Shown here piece after piece: positions 4,351-42,220 of a stretch of 42,553 nt of DNA. A program made the position numbers and the translations under genes. This DNA is from Verrucomicrobia subdivision 6 bacterium (lineage in GTDB: Bacteria; Verrucomicrobiota; Verrucomicrobiia; Methylacidiphilales; Verrucolacustridaceae). Location: positions 1 through 42,553 of the forward strand of contig CANIEM010000010.1 in the NCBI GenBank assembly GCA_947466515.1, given 5' to 3'. The notes under the pieces are model-generated. The model was not told where the DNA came from, made no database searches, and was given only the letters and a program-made list of their open reading frames with translations. Every line of letters begins with the position of its first letter. The first letter of the stretch is position 1.

Positions 4351-4352
4351 TC

Positions 4353-4910: not shown

Positions 4911-4935
4911 TGCAAAGAATCTTTGGGGTAACCCC

Positions 4936-4948: not shown

Positions 4949-4958
4949 GGGGGATGGG

Positions 4959-5147: not shown

Positions 5148-5157
5148 GGGAGATGAA

Positions 5158-5316: not shown

Positions 5317-5370
5317 CATGATAGGTTAAGGAATTAGCGGTCTAGCTTCCGAAAGGGAATTTCGGCATAA

Positions 5371-7979: not shown

Positions 7980-7982
7980 TTC

Positions 7983-8921: not shown

Positions 8922-8941
8922 TATGAACGGGCAAGAAACTA

Positions 8942-9004
8942 AACGCCGCGCTGGAGGGGCTGGAGAAGTTGCTCCTCCACCAAGCCTTAACCGGAGCGCG
9001 CTAG
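8942..9004 (+). pseudogene. Remnant of an hsdS 3' end (copy B)
   Basis: In the hsdS reading frame this stretch reads AALEGLEKLLLHQALTG and ends with a stop at 9002-9004. By hand count it matches the end of the intact hsdS at about 49 of 60 bases. No start codon is available: an in-frame TGA lies at 8924-8926. A different frame from ATG 8923 encodes 28 residues and ends in an ATGA overlap with the HNH gene, so the remnant may now serve only translational coupling. Confidence 0.8.
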
Positions 9005-9005
9005 C

Positions 9006-9896: not shown

Positions 9897-10003
9897 ACAC
9901 CACCAAGTCCCAAAGCCTCGCCTGCATTTACGAGCGTGAGCACGCCGTGCTGGAGCCGTTGAAAAATTCGCTGCTGCACCAAGCCTTCGCGGGCAACTCA
10001 TGA
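9893..10003 (+). pseudogene. Remnant of an hsdS 3' end kept as a 36-codon frame (copy C)
   Basis: ATG 9893 overlaps the HNH stop (ATGA), and the TGA at 10001-10003 overlaps the hsdR start (ATGA). The 36 codons end in YEREHAVLEPLKNSLLHQAF, clearly the HsdS C-terminal helix, with about 60 of 78 bases matching the intact gene by hand count. It may be a frozen fragment of a former hsdS that directly preceded hsdR. The open frame and double ATGA overlap may keep translation running into hsdR. A function for the peptide is not shown. Confidence 0.8.
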
Positions 10004-12375: not shown

Positions 12376-12378
12376 GTC

Positions 12379-13356
12379 ATGAATGAAGATCTAAAGGCGA
12401 GGGTAGAGCTGTATAAAAAGCTCGTCCCGCTCCTAGGCAAGGAGATGCCGTATACTTTCTTCCGGGAACCACAAAGCGCTTTAGGGCTGAATCAGAAGAT
12501 CCATCCGTTAGTTGAGGGCATCTATAAGCCAGCGAATTCCAATTATCCAATCTGTATTGCTTCAATGATTACTAGCCCTTATGCCGATCGTCTTTTCTAT
12601 AAGGAGGACGGCTCTTGGTGGATGTATTACAGTAAAAAGAGTGGTCCGATTGAGGGTGCAATCAACCAATCAGTAATTCGTTCTATGGAGGAGAAGGTGC
12701 CCTGTTTAATAATAAAACAGACAGCTAGTCAAGGGGGTTCTAAGTACCGGGTTCTCGGATTTGGAATTATAGAAAGTTACGATTCGGCCCAGGGTCTTTT
12801 TAAAATAAGCGAACTTTTGGATAAAGATATGGGCCCTTTTCTCGGGCTTTCGGAGGAAGACGATCTGATCGAGAGTGAAATTCGCATTTTATCCATCGAT
12901 AAATGGAGCCCATTTGTCCGAGAGGAGCGAGCCCTGTATCGAGTCAGCTCCCAGAAGAGAGCCAGGGCTTTTAGAAACGTAGTGCTTGATAGGTATAGCC
13001 AAACTTGTGCCGTTAGTGGGCAAAGATTTATCTACAATCGTTACGTAGAGGCTGAAGCAGCTCACATTATTGCAAAAGAATCCCTTGGGACGGATGATCC
13101 AAGAAATGGAATTGCTTTATCAAGATCGGCTCATTGGGCATTTGAGCGCGGGATCTTTACAATCTCGGATCAGTACGAGATTGTGGTTCACCCAGAGGCT
13201 GTAAAAATCTCGGAAAATAAGTTTTTTGTGACCGAGTTAAATGGGAAAAGCATATCATTGCCAAGCGACCCTATATTTAACCCACATCCTGATGCGTTGG
13301 CGTGGCACAGGAAGGAAAGATTTGGAGATTTCGCTCGAAAGCAAAATGTTGCTTAG
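12379..13356 (+). CDS. HNH endonuclease (HNH_2 type) with unassigned N-terminal domain
   Basis: A 325-residue protein, three bases after hsdR. The C-terminal part matches the HNH_2 pattern: FRNVVLDRYSQTCAVSG, then EAEAAHI with His229, DDPRNGIAL with Asn243, and SRSAHWAFERGIFTI with His252. The first 180 residues contain a possible reader fold (YPICIASMITSPYADRLFYK and WWMYYSKKSGP) that I cannot assign. G+C is lower than in hsdM, implying a separate acquisition. The context makes it a fourth nuclease-bearing protein of the restriction locus, plausibly acting on modified DNA as an McrA-like enzyme. Confidence 0.85.
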   Translation: MNEDLKARVELYKKLVPLLGKEMPYTFFREPQSALGLNQKIHPLVEGIYKPANSNYPICIASMITSPYADRLFYKEDGSWWMYYSKKSGPIEGAINQSVIRSMEEKVPCLIIKQTASQGGSKYRVLGFGIIESYDSAQGLFKISELLDKDMGPFLGLSEEDDLIESEIRILSIDKWSPFVREERALYRVSSQKRARAFRNVVLDRYSQTCAVSGQRFIYNRYVEAEAAHIIAKESLGTDDPRNGIALSRSAHWAFERGIFTISDQYEIVVHPEAVKISENKFFVTELNGKSISLPSDPIFNPHPDALAWHRKERFGDFARKQNVA

Positions 13357-18874: not shown

Positions 18875-19117
18875 ATGACCATGCAGGTGAACAGCAATCC
18901 GAAGACCAGCTCCGAAAGTACCAGCCATTCCCAGGATCGGCAGTATATGACTAGGGAGCAGGTGGCGGAGCTGTTTCAGATATCAACCAGGACCGTGAGC
19001 GAACTAACGGCGAGGGGAGTGATCATTGCGGTGAAGTTGGGTGGGGGTAGGAACGCGCCGGTGAGGTACCGGCGGGAAACGCTGGAGGAGACGGCTAAGA
19101 AACTGGAAAGACGCTGA
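18875..19117 (+). CDS. Excisionase/MerR-like helix-turn-helix protein
   Basis: 80 residues. After a polar N-terminus, residues 24-80 match the HTH_17/excisionase pattern: YMTREQVAELFQISTRTVSE, then LTARGVIIAVKLGGG and a wing ending APVRYRRETLEE. Such proteins direct excision or act as small transcription regulators. ATG 18875 is chosen because the regulator on the other strand starts 39 bases upstream; the frame stays open further upstream, but that would lie inside the opposite gene. It is paired with the XRE gene. Confidence 0.75.
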   Translation: MTMQVNSNPKTSSESTSHSQDRQYMTREQVAELFQISTRTVSELTARGVIIAVKLGGGRNAPVRYRRETLEETAKKLERR

Positions 19118-26162: not shown

Positions 26163-26262
26163 CGGTGAAAGAAACGGGGTGGGGTGCTCTCTTACCCCTT
26201 CCTCCTTCGTATTGAAGAGCTTTGCTTCCTTTTAACCCCTCCCGTGACAGCACCGTGACAGG
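26163..26262. repeat. 100-base dispersed repeat, copy B, with GTGACAG doublet
   Basis: It is the same order of blocks as copy A at 19819-19903, with a second GTGACAG inserted 11 bases after the first (26244-26250 and 26255-26261). It lies in the 290-base gap left of the nucleotidyltransferase gene. Confidence 0.65.
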
Positions 26263-26285
26263 GTTTAGTCCTACTAATCTTAATC

Positions 26286-26897
26286 TTACTCCAAGACTTT
26301 TTTGGCATGCCTGGGAAGATCTAAGCCAGTCAGGATATAGGCCAGTCTCTTTCGAAACGCCGGACTCGTTTTCCATCCAAGCATCCAATCCAAGGCATGA
26401 TCGATTTCCTTGGCTTTGGGTTTCATGGAAACCAGATCCTCCAAGTGACGTCGAAACTTTACAGGATCCATCGAGGCAAAGAGCTTTAAGGCGACTTGGT
26501 CTAATCGATCTAAGAACTGAACAGTCAGGCAGGGGCCATACTGTTTGCGGTGTCGTGCAGATCTGGAAACTACGCCCTTGGGCAGACCTAATCGCAAGAG
26601 TTCCGTAGCCGATGCGTTAAACCAATTGTCATCGAGCCCAAGCGTTGTTGCGGTTCGTTGGATTGCCGTCTGCAGCTCTTTTGGAAAACGGCGAATCTTG
26701 GTCAAGGCGCCGCCTTTCCCAAGAATTGCCAAGGCATCCACATCCATGGTCGAGCGGGATAGGATTTCAAGCATGCAAAGGGCAGAGGCCCCACCACAAA
26801 GGATTCTGACCTCGCTGGAATCGAGGCGAGCGAGTTGTCTGCCTAACTCGGTCAGGGCCCGGTCGATTTCCGTTTTGTTGCCTAGGTCTTTCTTCAT
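26286..26897 (-). CDS. DUF6036-like nucleotidyltransferase-fold protein
   Basis: 203 residues. ILCGGASALCML (32-43) and the metal-binding pair Asp52/Asp54 in STMDVDALAIL give the GG...DxD signature of DNA polymerase beta-type nucleotidyltransferases, close to DUF6036 and AbiEii/MenT-like toxins. A helical second half (QFLDRLDQVALKLFASMDPV) is typical. ATG 26897 overlaps the stop of the upstream gene (ATGA), a layout common for toxin-antitoxin pairs. The target, if it is a toxin, is unknown; housekeeping nucleotidyltransferase function is not excluded. Confidence 0.75.
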   Translation of the reverse strand: MKKDLGNKTEIDRALTELGRQLARLDSSEVRILCGGASALCMLEILSRSTMDVDALAILGKGGALTKIRRFPKELQTAIQRTATTLGLDDNWFNASATELLRLGLPKGVVSRSARHRKQYGPCLTVQFLDRLDQVALKLFASMDPVKFRRHLEDLVSMKPKAKEIDHALDWMLGWKTSPAFRKRLAYILTGLDLPRHAKKVLE

Positions 26898-27253
26898 TGG
26901 GCGAGGATAGATTTTGGGGAAAAGGTACCGCCGGGGGACTGAATATGTTTTTCCGACTTTAATCCGCTGATCCGGCGGCGAGTGGCCGGATAGTTGGCCG
27001 GATCAGGCCATGTCTGAATGCTAACGGTGCGAAATAATCCTGCATGAGAATCCCAAAGGGCAATCGGGGCGGTACGGCCCGATCCTTGGTACCAAGCGCC
27101 ATCCACAAGGGCCTCGACCGGAATGGTTCCGTCTTTATCCCGGGGGTGCCAACGCAGGAGGATGTTCTGCTTGGCCGAGAGGGTTTTTGCTGAGGTACGT
27201 TTCTGGCCACCGATTCGGCCGCTACGAACCGAAGTCTGTCGGATTGAGATCAT
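26894..27253 (-). CDS. Small basic protein translationally coupled to the nucleotidyltransferase
   Basis: 119 residues with ATG 27253. The N-terminal third is very basic (RQTSVRSGRIGGQKRTSAK), the middle is Trp/aromatic-containing (LLRWHPRDKDG, GAWYQGSGR, ALWDSHAGLF) and the C-terminus is basic again. The stop overlaps the next start codon as ATGA. The basic, short first gene fits an antitoxin or DNA-binding partner, but no helix-turn-helix is seen. Not recognised. Confidence 0.6.
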   Translation of the reverse strand: MISIRQTSVRSGRIGGQKRTSAKTLSAKQNILLRWHPRDKDGTIPVEALVDGAWYQGSGRTAPIALWDSHAGLFRTVSIQTWPDPANYPATRRRISGLKSEKHIQSPGGTFSPKSILAQ

Positions 27254-27332: not shown

Positions 27333-27512
27333 TCGAAGGGGCTTGGCAATTTTGGTAGGATTTTGGATTGGAAGTGAGGGAAGTAGATCCCGTGACAGTT
27401 CGTGACAGCAAGGTTACAAGTCGTGGCAATTTCTCACAAAACGGCGCAATATAAGTCCTTGATAGTGTTGATAATCAGGTAGTAGCACATAGTTTCAAAT
27501 CCCACCCCGTCC
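27333..27512 (+). repeat. 180-base repeat, copy 1, ending in a tRNA-like 3' segment
   Basis: Block order: TCGAAGGGGCTTGG, GGTAGGATTTTGGATTGG, CGTGACAGTTCGTGACAG, ACAAGTCGTGGCAATTTC, GCGCAATATAAGTC, TGATAATCAGGTAGTAGC, TAGTTTCAAATCCCAC. The last 20 bases (27493-27512) fit tRNA positions 54-73: TTCAAAT loop, CCCAC, CCCGTCC acceptor strand, G discriminator. It recurs at 30205 and 31982 in the same orientation. Confidence 0.8.
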
Positions 27513-27525
27513 GAGTTTCAAGAGA

Positions 27526-27840
27526 TTAATATTTGGCGGGATGATTCTCCGAACCGTGGCGAGCAGGGATCTCATCCTCGTTCATGTCGTCTTCCATGCC
27601 TTTTGAAATCGAGCAATTCATCATCGTCATATGCTGCTTCATCCTACAGCCACGCCCCCATTCTCCGCATTCGTATCCCCACTTGTGGTGATGTTCTCGA
27701 TGACAGTGACCCACAGTTCGTGCGACGGCGCAGATCGCGATCACAGCGAGACTGAGGGAGACGATCGACATAAAAATGAATTTCACCTTACAGCAATGAC
27801 TACAGGCCAACTTATCGGGGGCTTGGTTTTTCTCGTTCAT
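27526..27840 (-). CDS. His/Cys-rich single-span membrane protein (paralogue 2)
   Basis: 104 residues. Cys-containing N-terminus (ACSHCCKVK, 12-20), transmembrane segment FIFMSIVSLSLAVIAICAVA, then His/Cys/Met-rich part (GHCHREHHHKW, ECGEWGRGCRMKQHMTMMNC) and an acidic tail ending in His-containing ARHGSENHPAKY. The order of parts equals that of the protein at 19936-20316, which is longer. It lies 70 bases downstream of the TauE gene on the same strand, so the two may be co-transcribed. Metal binding is inferred from composition. Confidence 0.7.
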   Translation of the reverse strand: MNEKNQAPDKLACSHCCKVKFIFMSIVSLSLAVIAICAVARTVGHCHREHHHKWGYECGEWGRGCRMKQHMTMMNCSISKGMEDDMNEDEIPARHGSENHPAKY

Positions 27841-27910
27841 GGATAAAGTGTAGCTCTTTGGGGTATCCTATCAAATCGGATTATAAGCCACGCCTCGAAA
27901 GCAGAATTAC

Positions 27911-28630
27911 CTATCTTACGATAAATCTGATTCCAAATCCTAGTACTGTGAGCTCAACGATTAAGATGAAAAACTTTGTAGGAATCCGACTTAAAAGTCT
28001 TTTACCCAAAAATGTTCCGGCAATCATCAACGGTCCAAGCATTAATCCATAGAGCCACATTTTGGGGCTAATGGCGCCAAAACTTTGATAAGCCCCTAGC
28101 CGTACGATATGGGCTATCGTTGCTCCCAATGCCTCCGTGCCGATATATGCGGCTTTGGTCAGCCCATAAGAAAGATAAAAAGGTGCAACAAAAGGCCCTG
28201 CACTCCCGGTGATGGATGAAAAAACGGCAAATACTGCTCCGATTAATGAAAACCATTGGGGCGGGAAAGTGGATCGAAGGGCTGGATGGAGTCGACGGGC
28301 AATAACGGAGGCGATAAGGAATGCTCCAAGAATACGGAGAAGTCCGGAATCCGGAATGCGCGTAAAAAGCCATGCACCCAGCAAGGTGAAAGGAATCGAT
28401 CCAAGTGAATACCAGGCCACAGCCTTTCGATCGATGGACTGCCAGTTCATACAGACCCTGCTGAGATTGCTCACCAAGGCTACTACGGAAAAGATGGGGA
28501 CGGCTTCGCGAACGCCAAACACCCCAACCAAGACGGGAAGCAGGATCACGCTGCCACCGGTTCCCGTTATAGCCGCTACAACTGACGAAACGAAGGCAGC
28601 TGCAGTGATTATGATCCAGTTTTCGCTCAT
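27911..28630 (-). CDS. TauE/SafE-family sulfite or organic-anion exporter
   Basis: 239 residues, about eight hydrophobic spans, with the repeated TauE pattern: ITGTGGSVILLPVLVG near 21-36 in the first half and SSITGSAGPFVAPFYLSYGL near 130-150 in the second. The family moves sulfite, sulfoacetate or related anions across the inner membrane. The substrate is not deducible. It is divergent from the second nuclease pair and upstream of the His/Cys-rich gene on the same strand. Confidence 0.88.
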   Translation of the reverse strand: MSENWIIITAAAFVSSVVAAITGTGGSVILLPVLVGVFGVREAVPIFSVVALVSNLSRVCMNWQSIDRKAVAWYSLGSIPFTLLGAWLFTRIPDSGLLRILGAFLIASVIARRLHPALRSTFPPQWFSLIGAVFAVFSSITGSAGPFVAPFYLSYGLTKAAYIGTEALGATIAHIVRLGAYQSFGAISPKMWLYGLMLGPLMIAGTFLGKRLLSRIPTKFFILIVELTVLGFGIRFIVR

Positions 28631-28859
28631 GAATTCAGATAAAGGCGGACATCTTCATTTTAGGATAGAGCACATCGCACACTAAAGAAATCTTAAGGTG
28701 CGTAAATGGCTCTGGATCCTGTGGTAATGCCGTTCACTCTCCGGGATTGGAGGTGCGCTATGGGCCAATCGTAACCAGGGAGCCTCTAAAACCTTGAAAT
28801 CATTTCGAACGGGGTTGATTGTTTCTCGCAATTCAACTACGCCGACCTACTTTTAAAGT

Positions 28860-29282
28860 ATGAAAGTAAAAACTACACGATTCTTGTCTGTTGTTATCGC
28901 AATCCTCGCATTGTCATTCTCTTCGAGCTTCCCGTTTTCACTTCATGCGGAAGAAAAAAACAATCCTTCCTCCTCGGATTCCCTCACCCCCATTTACACC
29001 TCAAAGGAAACCGAATCCTTTAAAACCCTGGCTCAAGCCACGCTCGACTCCCTAGCCGCAGGCAAAAAAGAGGATATGGTCGCGAAGCTTACTGACCTGG
29101 AGACAGCTTGGGATGAGCAGGAGAAAAATCTCCGCCCAAAAAATGAAAAGATCTGGACGATTCTCGATAAAACTCTTGATAAGGCCATCTCTGCGCTCAG
29201 GGGCAGTAAATACAATCCCGAAAAAGGAAAGTCCGCCCTCAACACGCTTCTGCTGAATTTGGGCAAGGCAACCAAAGCCTGA
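28860..29282 (+). CDS. Secreted small helical protein, partner of S1/P1 nuclease (copy 2)
   Basis: 140 residues, paralogue of the protein at 20527. The signal peptide (MKVKTTRFLSVVIAILALSF) and the C-terminal NLLLNLGKATKA-like end have diverged, but residues about 60-121 are identical to copy 1, and the DNA there is nearly identical too. It starts 14 bases before the nuclease gene, the same spacing as in copy 1, and about 40 upstream bases (CGCAATTCAACT) are also shared. The pair is therefore a duplicated unit. Confidence 0.75.
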   Translation: MKVKTTRFLSVVIAILALSFSSSFPFSLHAEEKNNPSSSDSLTPIYTSKETESFKTLAQATLDSLAAGKKEDMVAKLTDLETAWDEQEKNLRPKNEKIWTILDKTLDKAISALRGSKYNPEKGKSALNTLLLNLGKATKA

Positions 29283-29296
29283 ACCCATAAACTTTT

Positions 29297-30145
29297 ATGC
29301 ATTTGGTTCGCTTGATCCTTGCAGTTCTTCTCGCGCTGGCGGCTTCACCCTGCATGGCCTGGCACGATGAGGGTCATATGGTCGTGGCTCAAATCGCCTA
29401 CAATCATCTAAGCGATCCGGTCAAAGTTAGGTGTGATGCATTGATTGCTGTGCAACTACCCTTGGGGGCTTCCACAAATAATACATTCATTACCTCATCC
29501 TGCTGGGCTGATGACTACAAATCCGAGCTCAACACCAAAAACCAGCATTACATCGACATGCCAATTAGCCTCGACGGCACCAAAACGAGTGAACCGAAGC
29601 CCGCGTCCTCCGATTTGGTTCGCGCCATCCGGGATTGCGTCACCACACTCCAATCGACTAATGCCTCCTCAACGGAGCAAGGGACTAGTCTTCGTTACCT
29701 GATCCACTTTATAGGTGACATTCATCAACCGCTTCACTGCGCAACCGGAGTCACATCGCTCCTTCCGGACGGAGACCTTGGGGGCAACAAGTTTTCGCTT
29801 CTTGGGGAGTGGAAAAATCTTCACATGCTTTGGGATGCCGGAGGGGGGTTCGTCGCTGATAAACTTATTCGGCCTTTGGATCAGGCCAACCAGGCAATCT
29901 TGGATGCAAAAGTCGCTGCCATTGAGCAAGACCATCGTTATCAGGCAACCCTTAAGGAGATCCCTGATTTTATGGAATGGGCCAAAGACAGCAACAGCTT
30001 GGCCAAGTCGGTATGCTACGAGGGTATTCATAGAAATACGGCTCCATCTTCCGAATACATCGCGAAAGCTAAAAAACTTACGGACGAAAGGCTCGCTATA
30101 GCTGGCCACCGCCTAGCGGATCTTTTGGAAATTATTTGCAAATAG
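29297..30145 (+). CDS. S1/P1-type secreted nuclease (copy 2)
   Basis: 282 residues, differing from copy 1 at about 26 positions, none of them a metal ligand: Trp22, His27, Asp72, His84, His137, Asp141, His147, His176 and Asp180 are all kept. The signal peptide is the most diverged part, and substitutions cluster at both ends. It should have the same periplasmic or extracellular nuclease activity. Here the pair is not followed by mgtA; a 180-base repeat begins 60 bases after the stop. Confidence 0.92.
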   Translation: MHLVRLILAVLLALAASPCMAWHDEGHMVVAQIAYNHLSDPVKVRCDALIAVQLPLGASTNNTFITSSCWADDYKSELNTKNQHYIDMPISLDGTKTSEPKPASSDLVRAIRDCVTTLQSTNASSTEQGTSLRYLIHFIGDIHQPLHCATGVTSLLPDGDLGGNKFSLLGEWKNLHMLWDAGGGFVADKLIRPLDQANQAILDAKVAAIEQDHRYQATLKEIPDFMEWAKDSNSLAKSVCYEGIHRNTAPSSEYIAKAKKLTDERLAIAGHRLADLLEIICK

Positions 30146-30573
30146 TTCAAATTCAAAAATCCCTTCAATCAAGCAGCATTATGTTCGAATTTTTCAGTTT
30201 CTTATCGAAGGGGCTTGGTGATTCTGGTAGGATTTTGGATTGGGAATGAGTGAAGTGGTTTCCGTGACAGTTCGTGACAGCATAGTTACAAGTCGTGGCA
30301 ATTTCTTTCAAAACGGCGCAATATAAGTCCTTGATAGTATTGATAATCAGGTAGTAGCGAATAGTTTCAAATCCCACCCCGTCCGCGTTGTAACACAAAA
30401 AGATACGACGAAAAATTTGCGCCGTGACAGTTTCGTGACAGGGATTGATGTTTTTTGAGTGAGATGGGGTCTTAAACAATTGTGAAAAACTGAGCATTTC
30501 CGGATTGCTCCTGCCGTTTATTTTTGTGATCTTTATTTTTCCGTCAACCAATTGCATAAAGGATTTTAATTCC
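30146..30573. other. Intergenic zone with repeat copy 2 and porin promoter
   Basis: It contains repeat copy 2 (30205-30385), then a separate GTGACAG doublet at 30424-30441. The remainder, to the porin start, is A/T-rich. A reverse frame of 169 codons crosses the repeat and is open in copies 2 and 3 but stopped in copy 1, so it is not a gene. Confidence 0.55.
30205..30385 (+). repeat. 180-base repeat, copy 2, ending in a tRNA-like 3' segment
   Basis: It matches copy 1 over its whole length with scattered changes. The terminal 20 bases (30366-30385) are identical to the tRNA-like end of copy 1, while the sequence beyond differs completely, so the repeat boundary is sharp at the discriminator position. 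Confidence 0.8.
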
Positions 30574-31926
30574 ATGAACAAACAAATCAGCGCATTCCTG
30601 TCGGCCACTTTGTTGGCATTCGTCCCAGCTTCAATGGCAGACAGCACTCCTGAAGCATCCGCCCAAGACACCAAGAAGATGGTGCAAAATAACTTCGTCG
30701 AAACTGCTCAGAAGGGGATCAAGCTCTCTGGGTACGTGGATGCCGGATACAGCTACAACTTCACCGGTTCGGGCAACCAATCCAATGTGCAGGGACGTTT
30801 CGGTTCCGACACAGCCCAACGTGGTGATTTCAATCTCTACGCTGTGAAAATAGCTTTGGAAAAAGCTCTGACCTCAGAGAACAAGGCTCAGGCGGGATTC
30901 CGGACTGACGTCATGATCGGTGAAGATGCTGACTACTTCATTAATCGTGCTGCGCGTTCCAATAGCAATACAAACAATAACTCCAACGCTCTTTTCCTGG
31001 AGCAGGCCTATGTTTCGATTCGTGCTCCGGTCGGGAATGGTTGGGACTTCAAGGTTGGAAAGTTTGTTTCCATCCTCGGATACGAAGTGATGGAGCGTCC
31101 TGCCAACATGAACACGACCTACGGGCTATTGTTTAATGTAATGCCCCTCTACTACACGGGTGTTCTTTCTTCCTACAGGTTTGACGACTACCTCGAGGGA
31201 AAGCTCGGTGTGGTCAACGGGTCCAACAGTGACAACAACACTACTACTAACCCAAATGCGGGGGACGGAGTTGCTGTTTTGGCGGCACTGAATGTGACAG
31301 CCCCCGGGGGCAATGCCACTTGGAGCAACAACTTCCAGTACAGCACAGGTTCCGACAACGACACCCGGCAGGGTGCAGATTTAACGACGGTGACTTCTGA
31401 GGCGGCCGCTGGATACACCCACACTGAATCAGCCTACTACATCATTTATAATTCCTGGGGTAACTGGGCTCCAAAATTCGCCGACGATAAGTTGCTCTTG
31501 GCTTTTAACGCTCTTTTGGGAAATGCCGATGGAAGTCTGTCCTATCAGCAAAACAACCCCAACTTCGGACCTGGTAATGTGAATTCCTGTTGGTACGGAG
31601 CCGGTGCATATGCCAAATACCAGTTCAATGACTGGTTTAGCCTAGCGAGTCGTGGGGAATATTTGGGCAGCAATAACTGCTGGGTTTTCGGCAACCAAGG
31701 ATCTGCTGCTTCCATTGGTCTCAATGGTCGTCATGTGACAGGGGACAATCTATGGGAGTACACACTCACTGCAGGCTTTAATGTCATCGATAACCTACTG
31801 ATCCGTGCGGAATACCGCATGGATTGGGGTAGTAATATCTATCGATCCTCCACCGGAGGTCCTGTAGGGGCGCAGTCCGGCGGGCCTGCTTACTACGCCG
31901 GAGCTGAAGTAGTTTACAGCTTCTAA
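30574..31926 (+). CDS. BBP2-type outer-membrane porin
   Basis: 450 residues from ATG 30574 (AAAGGA 11 bases upstream); a signal peptide MNKQISAFLSATLLAFVPASMA is followed by an acidic spacer. The body is a beta-barrel of alternating polar and aromatic strands: GIKLSGYVDAGYSYNF, GWDFKVGKFVSILGYEVMER, ending in AGAEVVYSF with the terminal Phe used for outer-membrane assembly. It resembles the putative beta-barrel porin-2 (OmpL-like) family of PVC-group bacteria. Its solute is unknown. It is a single-gene unit between two repeat copies, closed by a strong terminator. Confidence 0.85.
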   Translation: MNKQISAFLSATLLAFVPASMADSTPEASAQDTKKMVQNNFVETAQKGIKLSGYVDAGYSYNFTGSGNQSNVQGRFGSDTAQRGDFNLYAVKIALEKALTSENKAQAGFRTDVMIGEDADYFINRAARSNSNTNNNSNALFLEQAYVSIRAPVGNGWDFKVGKFVSILGYEVMERPANMNTTYGLLFNVMPLYYTGVLSSYRFDDYLEGKLGVVNGSNSDNNTTTNPNAGDGVAVLAALNVTAPGGNATWSNNFQYSTGSDNDTRQGADLTTVTSEAAAGYTHTESAYYIIYNSWGNWAPKFADDKLLLAFNALLGNADGSLSYQQNNPNFGPGNVNSCWYGAGAYAKYQFNDWFSLASRGEYLGSNNCWVFGNQGSAASIGLNGRHVTGDNLWEYTLTAGFNVIDNLLIRAEYRMDWGSNIYRSSTGGPVGAQSGGPAYYAGAEVVYSF

Positions 31927-31945
31927 AAAAACTAGTTTCAAAGAA

Positions 31946-31981
31946 AACCCTGGGAGGCTTCGGCTTCCCGGGGTTTTTTTA
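31946..31981 (+). terminator. Rho-independent terminator of the porin gene
   Basis: AACCCTGGGAGGC pairs with GCTTCCCGGGGTT across a TTCG tetraloop (13 pairs with two G-T wobbles) and is followed by a run of seven T. It lies 20 bases after the porin stop. Confidence 0.92.
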
Positions 31982-32162
31982 TCGAAGGGGCTTGGCATTT
32001 TTGGTAGGATTTTGGAATGGAAGTGAGGGAAGTAGATCCCGTGACAGTTCGTGACAGCATAGTCACAAGTCGTGGCAATTTCCCGCAAAACTGCGCAATA
32101 TAAGTCATTGATAGTGTTGATAATCAATTAGTAGCACATAGTTTCAAATCCCATTCCGTCCA
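31982..32162 (+). repeat. 180-base repeat, copy 3
   Basis: It begins directly after the porin terminator and matches copy 1 closely (CGTGACAGTTCGTGACAG at 32040-32057). The tRNA-like end is slightly decayed: CCCAT and TCCGTCC with A instead of G. Confidence 0.8.
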
Positions 32163-32177: not shown

Positions 32178-32717
32178 TCATTTGGCCCCGTCGTCCGAGG
32201 GAGCGGGTCCAAATCCCCAAAGTGAAAAATCTAAATCGTTCTCCCTTCGCGCCTGAAACTCAGGCGGCTGGCCTTCCATCCAAAGATTTCGGATTTTGGT
32301 CATTCGAGGGGATTGAATCAGCAGGGCAGGCGAGTACTTGCCTTTGCCTATTAACATCTCCTCTCCGTTGGGTCCAAGAAAGATCAAGAGATTTTCTTCT
32401 TCTGTTTTCTTGTTGGGCAGGTCCCCAAACTGTTCCCGCCAGACTGCTTGGGCTTTGGACTCGGTCCACGGACTCTTTCCGCTGAAATATCGGATCTGGA
32501 CGCACTCTCCTGTCAGAAACAGATACTGAGCCTGACGTCCGGCCGTAGATTTGTCCTCTGCCACGGCCAAAACAAAGGTCCGATTGTACAGAAGGGTTTC
32601 CCGTACAACTGTGAGGTTTTTTAAAATTTTAAGATCGGTCAGCGACTTGCCTAATTCGGCCCAGGCTAGACCTGTCCCCAGCATCCAGATACCTACAAAA
32701 ATCAAGGCTCTTTGCAT
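32178..32717 (-). CDS. Secreted protein of unknown function
   Basis: 179 residues from ATG 32717 (a GTG one codon upstream is also possible). Signal peptide MQRALIFVGIWMLGTGLAWA, mature start near ELGKSLTDLK. The mature part alternates strands and helices (LLYNRTFVLAVAEDK, QAQYLFLTGECVQIRYFSG, ENLLIFLGPNGEEMLIGKGK) with a single conserved-looking Cys near 72. No family is recognised. It converges with the porin across repeat copy 3. Confidence 0.65.
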   Translation of the reverse strand: MQRALIFVGIWMLGTGLAWAELGKSLTDLKILKNLTVVRETLLYNRTFVLAVAEDKSTAGRQAQYLFLTGECVQIRYFSGKSPWTESKAQAVWREQFGDLPNKKTEEENLLIFLGPNGEEMLIGKGKYSPALLIQSPRMTKIRNLWMEGQPPEFQARRENDLDFSLWGFGPAPSDDGAK

Positions 32718-32994
32718 CACTCTTATATATTCTGTTTTTTCAGCTTCGTCGACTCACGCATTAGAAAACCGCCTATCCGCTCAATGAGGGGGCAGGTTGG
32801 AGGGGGACCAAAACCCAACTTCGCATTTCGGAAATCCGTGTCTTCGATTACGGGGTAAGGTACAAATCTGTCCGATGCGGCATCTACTTGATCTAGTTAG
32901 GGTATTTGAGCGTGCAGCCTCCAGGCTTGAATAAGGTCAAATTAGATAAACTTATTTTAGGGTTTATCCAAGAGGTTTGCGCTAGGATCGAAAA

Positions 32995-34596
32995 ATGAAG
33001 TTACGAACTCTGTTGGCCCTAGTTTTTGCCTCGGTCGGGGTGCTGATGCTTTTTCTCGTGGCTATTTCCCTGGTGAATCGAAAAAAGGGATATGAACTCG
33101 GGAATGCCGAAGCTCGGAAATATTATTCGTATCAGCTGGCCGACGAGCTTAGGCAAAGCTCGGACGATCTTACGCGGATGGCAAGAACCTACGCAGTCAC
33201 AGGAAATGCTAAATATCAAAAGTTCTTTAACCGCATACTTGCGATTCGAAATGGTGAAGTGCCCCGACCTAAAGACTACGGAGATATCTATTGGGATTTA
33301 GTCGCAGGGGAGGAAGAGCCGGGAAACGTTGAACTAGGAGAAAAGGAATCACTTGAAAGCAGTATGCTTAAAGCTGGATTCACCGTGGATGAATTTGCTC
33401 TTTTGAAGGACTCTCAGAACCGAAGCGACGCCCTTGTAAAACTTGAGAATGTGGCGATGCACGCTCTGAAAGGAGAATTCGATGATGGAACGGGGTCGTT
33501 CCAGATAAAAAAGGAGCCTGATCAGGCGCTCGCTATCAAAATTCTACATAGCCAGCAGTATCATGATGCGAAGGCCAAAATCATGGAGCCTTTACGGAAT
33601 TTTACTCGCACAGTGACTCAAAGAACTTCAACCCTTGTCGAGATTCTAGAACTGGAGATGAGGTATAGGCTTCTCCTTGGTCTTGTCTTGGCCTTGACCC
33701 TCTTAGCGTTGTTGGGGATTGGCTACTTTCTTCTGCTGCGGCTCGTCCTGCGTCCCGTAAGTCTGCTTTCGAAGGCAGTTGAGCAGTTGGAGAAGGGGGA
33801 ATACTTCGAACTGAGAAACGCTGGGGGGGTGGAGGAGTTGAAAAAACTGATCGATGTTTTTAATCATACCTCAGCCACCTTGCGCCAAAGGGAAAAAGAA
33901 AAGGAAGCAGCCATATCAGATCTTGGGGTGAAGGCCCTAGCATTGGAGAAGGAAAAAGGGCGCACAGAAAAGCTTTTGCTGAATGTTTTACCCATTGCAA
34001 TTGCAGACCGTCTTCAAAGAGGGGAGAAAGTTGAGGCGGAAACATTTCCCGAGGTTACTGTTTTGTTTGCAGATGTCGTCGGCTTCACCAAGCTGGCGGC
34101 CGAAATTGGCCCGCGTTCTGTAGCAAATCTTCTAAACGAACTATTCGAAATCTTCGACGATCTAGCGGAGAAACATAATTTGGAGAAAATTAAAACGATC
34201 GGAGATTGTTACATGGCGGTTGCGGGGGTTCCGGACAGAAGTCCAACCCATGCGCAGCAAATGGCAGACTTTGCCATTGAAGCCCTCGAAGTTCTCAAAG
34301 CCCAAAACATACGTTTATCTCGAAACGTGCAAATCCGGATTGGAATGCATTCCGGAACCGTGGCCGCTGGGATTATCGGGAGAAAAAAGTTCGCCTACGA
34401 CCTTTGGGGGGATGTGGTGAACATAACCAGCAGATTGGAGGGGACAGCAGATCCCATGAAAATTCATGTTAGCGAAAGCATCCACTCGCGTTTAGAAGAT
34501 AGTTATCTTTTCGAGGCAAGAGGTGAGGTTGAGTTAAAAAATCGCGGAAAACTCCGAACTTACTTTCTTGTCGGAAAAAAGTCTGAGAAAGAATAG
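32995..34596 (+). CDS. Membrane class III adenylate cyclase with HAMP domain
   Basis: 533 residues. Span 1 at about 5-27, a periplasmic helical sensor region (28-227), span 2 at about 228-250, a HAMP-like segment (LRPVSLLSKAVEQLEKGEYF, 252-271 onward) and a coiled coil (295-325) lead to the catalytic domain. Metal-binding Asp360 (VLFADVVGFT) and Asp404 (IGDCYMA), adenine-selecting Lys398/400 and Asp469 (AYDLWGD), and transition-state Asn476 and Arg480 are all present. So it should make cyclic AMP from ATP in response to a periplasmic signal. No cAMP receptor gene is in the window. Confidence 0.93.
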   Translation: MKLRTLLALVFASVGVLMLFLVAISLVNRKKGYELGNAEARKYYSYQLADELRQSSDDLTRMARTYAVTGNAKYQKFFNRILAIRNGEVPRPKDYGDIYWDLVAGEEEPGNVELGEKESLESSMLKAGFTVDEFALLKDSQNRSDALVKLENVAMHALKGEFDDGTGSFQIKKEPDQALAIKILHSQQYHDAKAKIMEPLRNFTRTVTQRTSTLVEILELEMRYRLLLGLVLALTLLALLGIGYFLLLRLVLRPVSLLSKAVEQLEKGEYFELRNAGGVEELKKLIDVFNHTSATLRQREKEKEAAISDLGVKALALEKEKGRTEKLLLNVLPIAIADRLQRGEKVEAETFPEVTVLFADVVGFTKLAAEIGPRSVANLLNELFEIFDDLAEKHNLEKIKTIGDCYMAVAGVPDRSPTHAQQMADFAIEALEVLKAQNIRLSRNVQIRIGMHSGTVAAGIIGRKKFAYDLWGDVVNITSRLEGTADPMKIHVSESIHSRLEDSYLFEARGEVELKNRGKLRTYFLVGKKSEKE

Positions 34597-34847: not shown

Positions 34848-36425
34848 ATGAAATATTTCTCCTACCCGTTTTTACTAATGGTGGCTTGGTATAATGTATC
34901 CGCTGAAGAAATTCCGTGCTCCTTGGTAGGTAGCGGGCCTGAACTGCACTACGCCACCACAGCAAAAGGAGACCGGATTTGTGATTTCTCCTACGCAGGC
35001 TACCGAGGAGGAGGGGTGGCTTTGCCGGATGTCCCTGAAAAGGCCAAAGTGACCCCGATGGCAGGGGATTGTAGCGACAAGATTCAGGCTGCGATTGATG
35101 CAGTTTCCAGCATGCCGCTGGTCAACGATTTCAGGGGTGCGGTGGTCTTGGCGGCTGGCACATATAAATGCAGTAAGACACTGACTCTTCACACCAGCGG
35201 GGTCGTCTTGCGGGGTTCTGGTTCTAGTCGGGATGGAACGACCATTCAGATGACGGGTGCTCCTCACGCTTGCATTGTCATTGGTTTGAAGAGCGACACG
35301 CAGGAGGTAAAAGGCAAAAAGAAGTCGAAGAAAAAGAAAGATGCTGGAGAGGAGAAAGGCGGCTCTGGTGGTACCACCGAGATTGCAGATGATTATGTTC
35401 CATCTGGGGCTATCTCCTTGAACCTCGCGCTGAGTGATGCTTTTCAAGTTGGCGACCTGGTAAGAATTTCCCGGCCCGCTTCGGTGGAGTGGATTCATTT
35501 CATGGGAATGGACAACCTTATTTCCGACGGCGAAACGGGTCACTGGCTAAAGGAAGGCAAAGCCCTAACGCAGGACCGAGAGATCAAAGCGGTGAATGAA
35601 AAGCAGATCACTTGGGAAATGCCACTTACCGACTGCATTGATGTAAGTAAAATAGGGGCGAACCGTGGCACTGTTCAGAAGATTTCTGCTGATAAAAATC
35701 TATCGGAGTGCGGATTGGAAAACCTTCGGATTGAGGCTGTCGCGCCAAAAGGAGATTTTGTCGATGCTCAGAACAGTGGAGTTACCTTGGAGAGTTGTGA
35801 AGATGCCTGGGTTCGTAATGTTGCTACCTTAAATCAACTGCCCGATGTGGAGGTGGCTGATTCAGCCGAGCGGATTACACTTGAGTCGTTGGTGGCCAAC
35901 CATCCTGCGACGGTTACCAAATCTTCTCGCTCCGCAGGCAAGGCGACCGATTTCCGCTTGGGTGGCAGGCAGACGCTGATGAACAAGTGTAGTTCGTCTG
36001 GTAACGGCTCCTTTTACGTATCCACCGCAGACCCTGAGTCGATGCTCAACGTAGTGTTGAACTGTATCTTTAGTGGTGATGGATCAATCCAACCGCATAT
36101 GCGATGGTCGACAGGGCTCCTTTTGGATGGGTGTAAGCTCAGGGATGGGGAAATCATCCTTCGAAATCGGGGCGGGATGGGAAGTGGACATGGTTGGACG
36201 ATGGGGTGGGGGGTTGTTTGGAACTGCTCAGCAAAGAAGATCACAGTTGAGCAAGCTCCAGGATGCGTGAATTGGTGTATCGGCAGCTCTGGTATTTACG
36301 AAACGGTTAGTGGAAATACCACGGAGTGGCTTTTTTCTAAGGGGTCACCTGTGAAGCCCGAGAGTTTGTATTTAGCCCAACTGAGGGCACGACTTGGGGA
36401 TCAGGCACTCAAAGCGGTCAAGTAA
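34848..36425 (+). CDS. Secreted right-handed beta-helix (pectate-lyase-like) protein
   Basis: 525 residues. Signal peptide MKYFSYPFLLMVAWYNVSA. Residues 40-160 show the N-terminal cap of pectate-lyase-superfamily beta-helix proteins (DFSYAGYRGGGVALPDVPEK, DCSDKIQAAIDAV, GAVVLAAGTYKCSKTLTLHT, GVVLRGSG). Residues 290-480 carry short repeated coils (NLRIEAV, GVTLESCEDAWVRN, ITLESLVAN, GLLLDGCKL). An odd Lys-rich insert (KGKKKSKKKKDAGEEKGG) sits near 155-175. It probably acts on, or binds, a polysaccharide outside the cell; the substrate and catalytic residues are not evident. The next gene starts 5 bases later. Confidence 0.78.
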   Translation: MKYFSYPFLLMVAWYNVSAEEIPCSLVGSGPELHYATTAKGDRICDFSYAGYRGGGVALPDVPEKAKVTPMAGDCSDKIQAAIDAVSSMPLVNDFRGAVVLAAGTYKCSKTLTLHTSGVVLRGSGSSRDGTTIQMTGAPHACIVIGLKSDTQEVKGKKKSKKKKDAGEEKGGSGGTTEIADDYVPSGAISLNLALSDAFQVGDLVRISRPASVEWIHFMGMDNLISDGETGHWLKEGKALTQDREIKAVNEKQITWEMPLTDCIDVSKIGANRGTVQKISADKNLSECGLENLRIEAVAPKGDFVDAQNSGVTLESCEDAWVRNVATLNQLPDVEVADSAERITLESLVANHPATVTKSSRSAGKATDFRLGGRQTLMNKCSSSGNGSFYVSTADPESMLNVVLNCIFSGDGSIQPHMRWSTGLLLDGCKLRDGEIILRNRGGMGSGHGWTMGWGVVWNCSAKKITVEQAPGCVNWCIGSSGIYETVSGNTTEWLFSKGSPVKPESLYLAQLRARLGDQALKAVK

Positions 36426-36430
36426 AGCGA

Positions 36431-36970
36431 ATGAAGGCCGAATATCCGGATGCCTCAAAGTTTACCCAAGAGCAGAAAGAGCAGTTCGACAGGCTGCCGA
36501 TCAATCTCACGCGGATGCTTCTGCACTGTCCTGTTCCGATGGTTCAATCGTTCCTCGATTTCGGTTTGTCGTTCCGAACAGGGAATCTAGATCCAAAGAT
36601 CAGGGAACTGGTGATTCTGAGGATGGGTACCTTGCGGGGCAGTTCCTACGAACTTTTGCATCATCTCCCAGCGGCCAGGTTGGCCGGATTGAGCGAGATG
36701 GAGATTTCTGCCATCACCTCCGCCAAGCCCTCTGGTCTTAATGAGAAATTTTCTCTCATGCTTCAGTTGGCAGATGACTGTTCTCAGCTAGGGAAGGTTT
36801 CCGACTCTACCTCAGAGAAGCTGGCAAAGATATTTTCGGTACCCGAGATTGCGGAAGCGACCCTTCTTGCTGGTTTCTACGAAATGGTGGCCTGTTTTCT
36901 CGAAACTACGGGAGTGAAGCTGGATGAACATGGACTAAATTGGGGCAAGGTAGATAGCGAGTCTGCTTAA
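36431..36970 (+). CDS. Carboxymuconolactone decarboxylase-family protein
   Basis: 179 residues, all-helical. LDPKIRELVILRMGTLRGSS (53-72) and YELLHHLPAARLAGLSEMEI (73-92) match the CMD/AhpD-like fold. The usual redox CxxC is replaced by Gly70-Ser-Ser, so a thiol peroxidase role is unlikely; His77/His78 remain. It starts five bases after the beta-helix gene, so the two are co-transcribed, perhaps for breakdown of an aromatic or sugar-acid product. The reaction is unknown. Confidence 0.82.
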   Translation: MKAEYPDASKFTQEQKEQFDRLPINLTRMLLHCPVPMVQSFLDFGLSFRTGNLDPKIRELVILRMGTLRGSSYELLHHLPAARLAGLSEMEISAITSAKPSGLNEKFSLMLQLADDCSQLGKVSDSTSEKLAKIFSVPEIAEATLLAGFYEMVACFLETTGVKLDEHGLNWGKVDSESA

Positions 36971-37082
36971 TCAAAGTAACAAGTGCTGGGTCAAAATTAG
37001 CGGCTTCCGCTTGTCTTTAAATTGTCACAAACGAATCTTAATAAGCCATTGAATGCTCAGTAAGTGGTGCTTACTTAATCAC

Positions 37083-38207
37083 ATGCGTACGATTTTATCT
37101 TTTCTATTTGTTTTGATGGTTGCTGGATCAGTTAAAAGTTCAGCTCAAATTAGCCAGATATTTCCTGATGGTTACTCGGTGACCGGGGTCCGGGCATCAG
37201 ACGCATCTGGTAATATGATTATCGCGGGTGGTACCGGAACCTCTCCTTTTTTCTATTCTGGGCCGCTTCCTTCTTCAGTGAACCCTGGAAATACCTACAC
37301 CAATAATCTGGTGCCGATAATCAACGGAAGCGCCATCACGGGAACATCGACGTTTTATGGTCCCAATACTCCCTATTACAATTCATCGATCGGGGCGGGT
37401 AATGTGTTGGCGGTTGGTTCGTACAAGGAAACTCTTAGCTCCACCTATCAAAACGGTATGATGTATCTCGGGCCAATCACGGGGAGCGCATCTTCGAGTA
37501 ACTGGACTTCGATTAAGGTTACCGAAAGCGTGGCAGGACAAGCGGTAGGGGACACTATTCCGCACAGCACCATGGGGAATCTGGTGGTGGGTAACTACAA
37601 CACTGCAGTCCCGAGTAGTGGGCAGGGGTTCATTTATAACATTTCCGCACAAAGTTATAAGAAGTTGAGTTTTGGAGATGTCACAAGCGCTTTTGGTATC
37701 TGGCAGAATGGGGGATCGACTAGCTCTCTCTACACCATTGTCGGAGGCTACACTCTTTTGGGTGGCGATTCGCAGATTGGGTCCAAAGGGCAGCTCGGGT
37801 ATATTGTAAATTACAATGCATCAGCGGACGCGTTTAGTAATTTCACCGAGCTCAGCCTGAACAATGATCGGTCTATCTTCACTCATGTCGAGGGCATTGC
37901 CGCCTACCAAGATGGTTTCTCACTTGCGACGATGTCTGTGAAAGACGGTCTGCTTAGTGCCGCCTACGCATTCGTCCCAGTTACTGCGGGTGGATTCGGT
38001 ACAGCTAGTTGGGATGTAATTAACAATAACCTCAGCGGAACTTCAACCACTGGAGACACGGTGATCGATAGGTCCGTAATGGGTCTCTACACCACGACAG
38101 GAGGCGCTTCTGCCTCTTTTGTTTATAGCGTGCCCGAACCCTCCGCTCTCTCACTTCTGGCTGTTGGTATTGGCGGATTGGTGATGATACGTAGGCGTCG
38201 GTCGTAA
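37083..38207 (+). CDS. PEP-CTERM sorting-domain secreted protein
   Basis: 374 residues from ATG 37083, chosen because it opens a signal peptide (MRTILSFLFVLMVAGSVKSSAQ); an ATG ten codons upstream is less apt. The body is rich in Ser, Thr and Gly with regularly spaced strands (NMIIAGGTGTSPFFYSG, TIVGGYTLLGGDS), like an extracellular beta-propeller or adhesin. The C-terminus has the sorting signal VPEPSALSLL, a hydrophobic span and RRRRS, recognised by an exosortase that cleaves and links it to the cell envelope or extracellular matrix. No exosortase gene is in the window. Confidence 0.88.
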   Translation: MRTILSFLFVLMVAGSVKSSAQISQIFPDGYSVTGVRASDASGNMIIAGGTGTSPFFYSGPLPSSVNPGNTYTNNLVPIINGSAITGTSTFYGPNTPYYNSSIGAGNVLAVGSYKETLSSTYQNGMMYLGPITGSASSSNWTSIKVTESVAGQAVGDTIPHSTMGNLVVGNYNTAVPSSGQGFIYNISAQSYKKLSFGDVTSAFGIWQNGGSTSSLYTIVGGYTLLGGDSQIGSKGQLGYIVNYNASADAFSNFTELSLNNDRSIFTHVEGIAAYQDGFSLATMSVKDGLLSAAYAFVPVTAGGFGTASWDVINNNLSGTSTTGDTVIDRSVMGLYTTTGGASASFVYSVPEPSALSLLAVGIGGLVMIRRRRS

Positions 38208-38282
38208 TCTGCAGTCGGCCTCAATTCCTTAAGCATTCAGCAATTACAAACCCCGCTAGCGTGTGGCGGGTATCTACCAGGT

Positions 38283-40490
<2,208 letters not shown>

Positions 40491-40609
40491 TTACTTCATT
40501 CCGGCTGAAAATCTTTGAATTCCAGCCTGAAAAAGCTCTGTAAATGTATAGCCGAGAAGGGGAAAATCAAATTGAAACCGGTAGAAAATAAGGAAAAGAG
40601 GTGGGTGGA

Positions 40610-42220
40610 TTACGAGGGAGGATTTTCGGATAGGGTGACACCAGAGTTATTTTCGAGGAAGAAGTCGATCGACCAGGCGGTTTCAAAAAGGACAACCGTT
40701 CGGTTTCCGGCGTCGGTAGCTTGAATGGCGGTGGAGGGCAGAACGAGGGGCTTTGGGTTGGAACGGGATTCTGTGGGCCAGCGGACGAATTTCCAGCGAG
40801 CAGGCTCGATCCGAGTTTCGGCTCCATATTCGGACTCGAGGCGATGACGGAGGACATCGAACTGCAGGGGACCGACGGCGCCAAGGAGGGGAATGGCGGA
40901 GGTATTTCCTTCGAGCTGATATTTCTGGGCGACTCCTTCCTTGAGGAGTTGATCGAGGCCTGTGCGGAAACGCTTTTGCATGGCGCTGGTGGCGCAGTGG
41001 ACGAAGGCAAAGCACTCCGGTGGAAAGCGTGGGATCTCGTCGAAGAGAGTGCTTGGTTCTTCGGTGAGGGTATCGCCGATTTGCAGATCGTGATTTCCGA
41101 CCAGACCAACAACATCGCCTGGCCAAGCGTCGTCGACAGTTTCGCGTTCACGGGCAAAGAGGCGTTGGGAGTTAGAGAGACGTAGATTCTCCCCGGTACG
41201 GGGATTGAGTGCGACCATATCTCGGCGGAAGTGTCCTGAGACTACTCGGACGAAGGCGACACGATCCCGATGACGTGGATTCATATTGGCTTGGATCTTG
41301 AAAACGAATCCTGAGAAGGATGGAGATTCAGGGAGAATTATTTCCTTGGAAGAGCGGCGAGGGCCAGGGGGCGAGGCGAACTGGAGGAAGCGTTCGAGGA
41401 GGAGGCGGACGCCGAAATTATTTGCGGCACTACCAAAAAAGACGGCGGTGAGTTTGCCTGCACGCAGGTCGTCGAGTTGAAAGTTGGCTCCCGCTCCATC
41501 GAGAAGGGCGAGTTCATCCCGGAATTTCTGATAGGCATCGGGAGAGAGGGATGCACGGACTTTAGGATCGTCGACGCCTCCGACCTGTTCGGGAGCGCGA
41601 AAGGCACCTCCGGGGACTTTTTCGAAGAGGTGGACCTCTTTTTCCTGCCGGTCATAGACCCCACGGAATTCGGGACCACTGCCTAAGGGCCAGACGCAGG
41701 GTGCGGCATGTATACCGAGAACGTTTTCAAGCTCATCCAGAAGATCGAGGGGGTCACGAGCGGGGCGATCGAGCTTGTTCATGAAGGTAAAGATGGGGAC
41801 TCCGCGGCGTCGACAGACTTCGAAGAGTTTTCGGGTTTGGGGTTCGATTCCTTTGGCAGCATCGATGACCATAACTGCGGCATCGACGGCGGTAAGGACT
41901 CGATAAGTATCTTCGGAAAAGTCTCGGTGGCCTGGGGTATCGAGGAGGTTGACGACGTGGTCGCCGTAAGGGAACTGGAGGACGGTAGAGGAGACGGAGA
42001 TTCCGCGTTGCTTCTCGAGCTCCATCCAATCGCTGGTGGTGGCTCTTTGGTTGCGACGAGCGGTGACGCTGCCTGCGAGTTGGACTGCCCCGCCGTAAAG
42101 GAGGAACTTCTCGGTGAGAGTGGTCTTTCCTGCGTCGGGATGAGAGATAATGGCAAACGTGCGGCGCCTCGCGATTTCGCGGGCGGCCAGAGGGTTAGCT
42201 GGGCTAGAGATCGGGGTCAT
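40610..42220 (-). CDS. prfC: Peptide chain release factor 3
   Basis: 536 residues. GTPase that removes RF1/RF2 from ribosomes after termination. G1 SHPDAGKT at 26-33, G2 region RGISVSST at 72-79, G3 DTPGH at 94-98, G4 NKLD at 148-151, and RF3-specific WMELEKQRGISVSS; length is that of typical RF3. Domain II and III follow to the end, with FKIQANMNPRHRDRVAFVR characteristic of RF3. It is a stable housekeeping marker for the right side of the accessory region. Confidence 0.97.
   Translation of the reverse strand: MTPISSPANPLAAREIARRRTFAIISHPDAGKTTLTEKFLLYGGAVQLAGSVTARRNQRATTSDWMELEKQRGISVSSTVLQFPYGDHVVNLLDTPGHRDFSEDTYRVLTAVDAAVMVIDAAKGIEPQTRKLFEVCRRRGVPIFTFMNKLDRPARDPLDLLDELENVLGIHAAPCVWPLGSGPEFRGVYDRQEKEVHLFEKVPGGAFRAPEQVGGVDDPKVRASLSPDAYQKFRDELALLDGAGANFQLDDLRAGKLTAVFFGSAANNFGVRLLLERFLQFASPPGPRRSSKEIILPESPSFSGFVFKIQANMNPRHRDRVAFVRVVSGHFRRDMVALNPRTGENLRLSNSQRLFARERETVDDAWPGDVVGLVGNHDLQIGDTLTEEPSTLFDEIPRFPPECFAFVHCATSAMQKRFRTGLDQLLKEGVAQKYQLEGNTSAIPLLGAVGPLQFDVLRHRLESEYGAETRIEPARWKFVRWPTESRSNPKPLVLPSTAIQATDAGNRTVVLFETAWSIDFFLENNSGVTLSENPPS

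Follow-up and report, generated by a model that had tools for sequence, protein, structure and literature searches.

Direct repeats and the tRNA-Ser(CGA) gene

The stretch of DNA analysed here (the window) comprises 42,553 nucleotides of contig CANIEM010000010.1 from a Verrucomicrobia subdivision 6 bacterium (assembly GCA_947466515.1, 2.06 Mb in 84 contigs; in the following, G-numbers denote genomes, with G000 being the genome that holds the window, and C-numbers contigs), and it contains direct repeats that end like a tRNA gene and separate short groups of genes. The initial annotation had noticed three copies of about 180 bases in the same orientation together with a partial one, and this arrangement was confirmed, with all four matches on the + strand. 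Copy 1 is located at 27331-27512, copy 2 at 30203/30205-30384, and copy 3 at 31980/31982-32161, and copies 2 and 3 are 91-93% identical to copy 1. Each contains a conserved region that we term the P arm, by analogy with phage attP (GTGACAGTTCGTGACAG at 27392-27408 in copy 1, and the equivalent regions at 30264-30280 and 32041-32057), followed by a core that corresponds to a tRNA end (27494-27512 in copy 1, with the twentieth base, G, at 27513; 30366-30384 in copy 2; decayed in copy 3). Partial copy 4 at 34701-34779 consists only of the outer part of the P-arm region without a core; it is 81% identical across repeat bases 1-68 (34701-34768), and a repeat profile lengthens the match to position 34779. 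A search of the whole assembly returned these four copies as the sole matches, and not the hundreds of scattered copies that the initial annotation had named as an outcome contrary to its proposal. The longest exact stretch common to the copies is 42 bases, and a misassembly by collapse of repeats is therefore unlikely.

Copies 1 and 2 terminate in TTCAAATCCCACCCCGTCCG, which matches the 3' end of tRNA-Ser(CGA) at 20/20 positions, and the T-stem half upstream of this tail is absent from the repeats, both as proposed from the repeats themselves. The tRNA gene with the same 20-base end exists once in the genome, as an intact gene on contig C44 (C44:18904-18991; ARAGORN; Rfam RF00005, 60.5 bits), and the 19-mer core has three exact occurrences in 2.06 Mb, namely in this gene, in copy 1, and in copy 2, with none for the reversed control. 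As in tRNA-integrated islands, there is thus an intact tRNA gene and there are displaced 20/20 fragments of it (27494-27513 and 30366-30385), and as in additive flexible genomic islands, the repeated tRNA 3' fragments of copies 1-3 bound cassettes at one tRNA. Core mismatches follow the distance from the tRNA, with 0 in copy 1, 0 in copy 2, and 3/20 in copy 3, after which the core is lost in the partial copy.

Directly 3' of tRNA-Ser(CGA) stands GTGACAGATTCGTGACAG, with a second type of arm, the P' arm, at the junction (C44:19030-19047), and 65 bp past the tRNA end begins a gene for a 400-aa tyrosine recombinase (C44:19058-20257), which is the kind of enzyme that had been expected nearby. It matches a PHROG integrase (E=1.6e-21) and XerA-like proteins (E=2e-9), while a PDB sequence search gave a weak XerC-like match only (E=0.029). 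Its catalytic boxes were aligned with relatives of ~30% identity across the order, and comprise the box I Arg, N-x-x-R, G-N, and Tyr; in most aligned members of this family (the C44 integrase and its relatives L141-L158), Asn occupies the usual catalytic His positions (N-x-x-R, G-N). Among these relatives, L150 overlaps with the end of a tRNA-Thr gene. Two further proteins of this assembly match the Pfam integrase family strongly; both types occur in almost every genome of the genus, for which reason they are probably Xer proteins, and the C44 enzyme would then be the sole non-Xer tyrosine recombinase found by Pfam in the assembly. A small excisionase/AlpA-like HTH_17 protein (18875..19117, + strand; Pfam PF12728, E=1.2e-8) is a candidate directionality factor. 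In a scan of GTDB contigs with the integrase, the record of G002 was the only match. Viral contigs of IMG/VR contained neither a relative of the integrase nor the P-arm-plus-core pattern, and therefore no phage carrier was found; no structural phage genes were seen among the searched proteins either, so that the locus does not qualify as a phage or phage satellite.

The first 142 bases of the window (1..142) are 100% identical to the last 142 nt of C44, and this stretch is unique in both contigs. If C44 is joined via this overlap, the end of tRNA-Ser(CGA) lies 1425 bp upstream of window base 1, with the recombinase in between. The 32.9-kb contig G002:C87, from an independent genome of the same genus, carries a tRNA-Ser core, an integrase (98% identical), a DUF6232 gene, and o15519/o16331 in identical order, and as this order is found on a single contig, it supports the join. 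This contig (L121, JASGCJ010000021.1) is labelled Candidatus Paceibacterota, and the label is probably wrong, as genes for outer-membrane porins and PEP-CTERM proteins are found in the genus.

Predicted attachment-site arms and the occupation of two tRNA-Ser genes

Alignment of 10 full repeats from 5 genomes gave a common plan, in which an outer region is followed by the P arm—a pair of GTGACAG motifs with spacing 10 (GTGACAG-TTC-GTGACAG)—and then by ~85 bp and the tRNA core. The pair is present in every full copy of the window, and one aligned repeat (G004:C196) retains 1/2 motifs. On the 3' side of the core, the elements continue with ~40 bp and the P' arm, which is a pair with spacing 11 (GTGACAG-NNNN-GTGACAG). 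The 160 bases ahead of the tRNA-like tail are a conserved integrase-type arm region and not island filler, and the GTGACAG pairs may be bound by the integrase beside the tRNA. Just past copy 2, a P' arm (GTGACAG-TTTC-GTGACAG) was found at 30424..30441 on the + strand (P' profile E=1.3e-25 over 30366-30456), so that 30203-30441 contains P arm, core, and P' arm together, which is a complete attP-like junction and what two tandem elements would leave between them. A further P' arm, GTGACAGCACCGTGACAG at 26244-26261, follows a degenerate core (site 26195..26269, + strand; P' profile E=2e-7) and marks the left edge of a cassette at 26.2-27.5 kb; 49 nt of this site are 94% identical to the P' arm directly behind tRNA-Ser(CGA) in G004:C192. 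An 82-bp repeat ending in GTGACAG is present at 19821-19902 and 26169-26250; of the two, the latter extends into the P' arm at 26244, and the former, with a single GTGACAG, may be an older, decayed attachment site.

In 21 genomes of the genus, 19 exact GTGACAG pairs with a spacing of 10 or 11 were counted, versus 3 in 41 genomes from elsewhere in the order; the reversed-pattern control occurs 0 times and once, respectively, with one of the 3 order sites also matching the control. Essentially all of the 19 genus pairs are located at tRNA-Ser ends, P-core repeats, or island edges (e.g. window 26244; G004:C196).

The related genomes differ in what they carry at tRNA-Ser(CGA). The site is near-empty in G011 and G003, where the tRNA gene lies within ~1-1.3 kb of KatG and where G003 keeps a P' arm; it is singly filled in G001 and G012, and in G000 a long multi-segment array is found. 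In G001, one porin and a degenerate P scar are followed by the chromosomal genes that are found past the partial repeat of the window, and this scar, which lies on C36 between the porin and the same chromosomal gene, matches partial copy 4. G012 has one 2.6-kb element with a single gene for a 670-aa Sel1-repeat/trypsin-like protein, which ends in P-core. The conserved chromosomal flank of the window (34848..42220; Pfam) encodes a 525-aa polysaccharide-lyase-like protein, CMD, a PEP-CTERM protein, KatG, and RF3, and members of this flank sit just beyond tRNA-Ser(CGA) in G001, G003, G011, and G012. From the left end of the window to ~34.7 kb, the DNA is a predicted island between tRNA-Ser(CGA) and this conserved chromosome. 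In G015:C16 (L097, 118-1210), a different integrase (405-aa frame) stands beside the tRNA-like core TTCGAATCCCACCCCGTCC without a predicted tRNA, and probably belongs to another element that uses a similar tRNA end. Two inverted full repeats in G005:C38 (L099, 3053-3645) form a 593-bp palindrome at a contig end; as this may be either a real inversion or an artefact of the assembly, the pair was not considered further.

Between copies 2 and 3, the window contains a single gene, which encodes a porin of the BBP2 family (30574..31926, + strand; Pfam PF07642, E=2.5e-49), in a cassette that measures 1777 bp from core to core. Porin cassettes that are built alike are found at tRNA-Ser(GGA) in G004:C137 and G012:C47. 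The core of this second tRNA gene differs from that of tRNA-Ser(CGA) at 2 positions, and each repeat core matches its local tRNA. In G004:C137, the order is tRNA-Ser(GGA)-core-P'-porin-P-core-P'-porin, and G012:C47 has one porin cassette with P-core at its end; G004 and G012 have one porin cassette in common, with 96% DNA identity. G000:C6 does not have the first cassette, and the 348 bp to the right of the second core in G004:C137 align with it at 99% identity; the edges of the extra cassette therefore fall in the core. In a porin tree, the window porin from the CGA site clusters with the porins that G004 and G000 carry at the GGA site (support 100) rather than with those that G001 and G002 carry at the CGA site, a topology that fits a movement between the two tRNA-Ser sites. 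In G000:C6, four ~88-bp core-plus-hairpin units lie between tRNA-Ser(GGA) and the porin. Such tandem units of ~77-88 bp, each of which combines a core-like AATCCCACC with a hairpin, are found directly behind tRNA-Ser also in L102, L086, L103, L096, and L101, and the unit copy behind which cassettes begin varies from genome to genome, as though the units served as additional attB sites.

Probable island growth at the tRNA end and alternative explanations

We consider it highly probable that the window is a genomic island that grew at the 3' end of tRNA-Ser(CGA) through successive site-specific integrations by a tyrosine recombinase. The observations behind this reading are the identity of the tRNA, the adjacent recombinase, arms on cassettes with and without an integrase, sites that are filled in some genomes and near-empty in others, the occurrence of the same ends at a second tRNA-Ser gene, and decay of the core with distance. 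The initial annotation had regarded the repeats as attachment-site halves left by an integrase at a tRNA gene, which is supported by tRNA-Ser(CGA), the adjoining recombinase, and the conserved arms, and it had suggested successive integrations at one place, in agreement with the relatives, in which the site at this tRNA is near-empty or has taken up one or several insertions. Its idea that the intervening segments are island pieces was borne out and could be refined, as some of them are cassettes of a single gene without an integrase, which have relatives at a second tRNA-Ser gene.

Mechanistically, each ~180-bp repeat would represent the P arm and the core of an attachment site, with the last 20 tRNA bases as core. 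An incoming P-core-P' circle would recombine with the core of the tRNA, whereby the tRNA would be restored and the newcomer would adjoin it, and older segments would be displaced outward, leaving a P-arm-plus-core scar at each boundary. Partial copy 4 marks the old edge of the island against the conserved chromosome with its genes for the polysaccharide-lyase-like protein, CMD, KatG, and RF3. The integrase-less cassettes of 1-4 genes (the porin; a nucleotidyltransferase pair; a permease and a nuclease) would be moved in trans, most likely by the integrase at the tRNA side or a relative of it, and we regard such a trans mobilisation as probable. Circular intermediates would be a part of this process, which may still take place today. 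With the GTGACAG-pair signature (spacing 10/11 by a tRNA-Ser core), the mobilisation of single genes in trans can be tested directly, and the arm signature GTGACAGTTCGTGACAG-N~85-TTCRAATCCCACCCYGTCC can serve as a search key for cassettes in metagenomes.

Several points weigh against this reading. Copies 1 and 3 have no P' arm directly downstream, so that some boundaries are not intact attP-like junctions. The integrase was found in only 2/21 genomes of the genus, and the enzyme that acts in trans need not be exactly this one. The join of C44 and the window depends on a 142-nt overlap that was left unbridged by the assembler, and old duplications with differential loss could also account for the porin tree. 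Furthermore, we infer mobility from a species-level comparison of draft metagenome-assembled genomes and not from excised circles, strain pairs, or reads.

The first two of these points, together with the partial state of the distal scar, are what would be expected if the segments had once been full elements with their own integrases, which have since been deleted, so that remnants similar to cis-mobilisable elements (CIMEs) were left and minimal cassettes were never mobilised in trans. Such a decay is the route reported for CIMEs and for integrative and mobilisable elements (PMC5704250), and we give it a real, if lesser, chance. It has to account for the fact that several integrase-less elements retain both arms and the core around exactly one gene (G004:C137; window 30366-32161), for which deletions would need to halt repeatedly just before the arms, and for the porin cassette that G004 and G012 share at 96% DNA identity. 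As in CIMEs, the porin cassette of the window (30366-32161) and a cassette in G004 (G004:C137:7911-9616) have attachment sites on both sides and no integrase or transfer genes. That each cassette has its own integrase was rejected for the porin and the Sel1/protease cassettes, which contain one gene apiece.

It is very unlikely that the repeats spread without site-specific integration, through duplications of the ordinary kind or through homologous recombination. Such events do happen here, as there is a real large duplication in the window (20486-21812 / 28819-30145, 88% identity), but this duplication excludes the repeat, whereas the repeats adjoin unrelated cargo, always end in a tRNA core, and recur at two tRNA-Ser genes with cores that are 2 positions apart and match the local tRNA each time. 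Even less likely is a dispersed regulatory or structural element, such as a promoter, terminator, or small RNA, with an incidental tRNA-like tail: the outer ~70 bp are indeed conserved alone in partial copies, but the genome contains only 4 copies, which lie at island boundaries near a recombinase, the tail is identical to a tRNA 3' end, and no Rfam family matched in the window at the gathering threshold, for which reason a known RNA was rejected as well.

Island cargo and comparison with known systems

The left part of the island is a cargo block on the + strand (433..13356; Pfam, PADLOC, NCBIfam), which encodes a helicase/nuclease defence-like protein (433-4005), a DUF6232 protein (4341-4910), a type I restriction-modification system (HsdM 5371-6837; HsdS 6834-7979; HsdR 10000-12375), a PDC-S02-like nuclease (7983-8921), and two HNH nucleases (9006-9896; 12379-13356). 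The gene at 433-4005 matches the C-terminal part and a gene at 13460-14776 the N-terminal part of the anti-phage protein ProA (NF058533, 1903 aa); the two are on opposite strands and 10 kb apart, with the type I restriction system between them. A gene-poor stretch at 17785-17920 contains an array of ~10-bp repeats (AAACAACGCC / AAACAATGGG).

On the tRNA side of copy 1, two overlapping genes on the - strand (26286..27253) encode a 203-aa protein with a weak, below cut-off Pfam match to DUF6036/AbiEii-like nucleotidyltransferases and a 119-aa protein. This pair is cassette cargo and would be of a toxin-antitoxin-like type; a 90-95% identical pair stands close behind tRNA-Ser(CGA) in G007:C72, and the 119-aa gene is also found in G004:C196. 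The segment between copies 1 and 2 (27526..30145; Pfam) encodes a 104-aa protein and a TauE/SafE permease on the - strand and a 140-aa protein and an S1/P1 nuclease on the + strand. The 1.33-kb duplication mentioned above comprises a small stress-protein-like gene and the S1/P1 nuclease gene, and each of its copies is preceded by a related reverse-strand gene (o19936 / o27526). The oldest segment (32178..34596; Pfam) encodes a 180-aa protein (- strand), for which an 87% identical relative lies beside a partial repeat in G002:C83, and an adenylate/guanylate cyclase (+ strand). Genes for conjugation or relaxases were not recognised among the proteins searched.

Our literature searches did not bring up any account of this locus. 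From streamlined aquatic bacteria, additive islands in which tRNA ends are repeated have been reported, with the enzyme that builds them and the full attachment sites usually unassigned. Examples are the flexible genomic island fGI-2 of Ca. Methylopumilus (freshwater Methylophilaceae), with repeats of the last 20 bases of tRNA-Lys (PMC10872708), and fGI1 of the marine Ca. Actinomarinales, with repeated tRNA 3' ends (PMC7771536). As far as the available text of these reports goes, the island described here is like them in its growth at a tRNA, its small cassettes that each end in a ~20-base tRNA repeat, and its cargo that varies among close relatives, and it differs from their description, which gives tRNA-fragment repeats only, in having a recombinase, P and P' arms, a complete attP-like junction, and the same ends at two tRNA-Ser genes. 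The ssrA islands of Dehalococcoides are in tandem with 20-bp repeats of the RNA gene 3' end, about half of them are without integration modules, and cis-mobilisation and accretion were proposed (PMC3146451); there, a serine recombinase and a six-gene module act at a tmRNA gene, whereas here a single tyrosine recombinase is found at tRNA-Ser, and the conserved cassette arms are longer. In the accretion of streptococcal CIMEs, integrative and mobilisable elements, and integrative and conjugative elements, tandem elements share attachment sites, and members that lack an integrase retain attL/attR and are open to mobilisation by a neighbouring element (PMC5704250); unlike in streptococcal CIMEs, cassettes here contain a single metabolic gene, and no genes for conjugation or relaxases were seen among the searched proteins. 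Tycheposons of Prochlorococcus, and reportedly also of Methylophilaceae, are likewise tRNA-anchored and have a tyrosine recombinase and cargo instead of phage genes; they are described as elements of 4-200 kb, and the likeness is one of description.

With integrons, the locus shares an array of small cassettes added at a fixed site beside a tyrosine recombinase with the newest nearest the site, but its attachment sites are double-stranded P-core-P' sites and its target is a tRNA; attC-type sites were not recognised, attC folding not having been searched for, and by its integrase the locus is no integron, as the recombinase reached 17.1 bits with TIGR02249 at a cut-off of 265. Tentatively, and with more doubt than confidence, one may think of a tRNA-anchored, integron-like capture of cassettes with phage-type attachment sites, in which a docked integrase would take up one-gene cassettes (P'-gene-P-core) in trans with the newest by the tRNA, two target-matched subfamilies would serve tRNA-Ser(CGA) and tRNA-Ser(GGA), and the ~88-bp tandem units of some relatives would be extra landing sites. 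Two features set this locus apart from the known islands: cassettes with one gene and no integrase bear complete phage-type ends, and they are used at two tRNA-Ser genes. The recombinase, both arm motifs, the core, the filled and near-empty sites, and the cassettes are set out here together.

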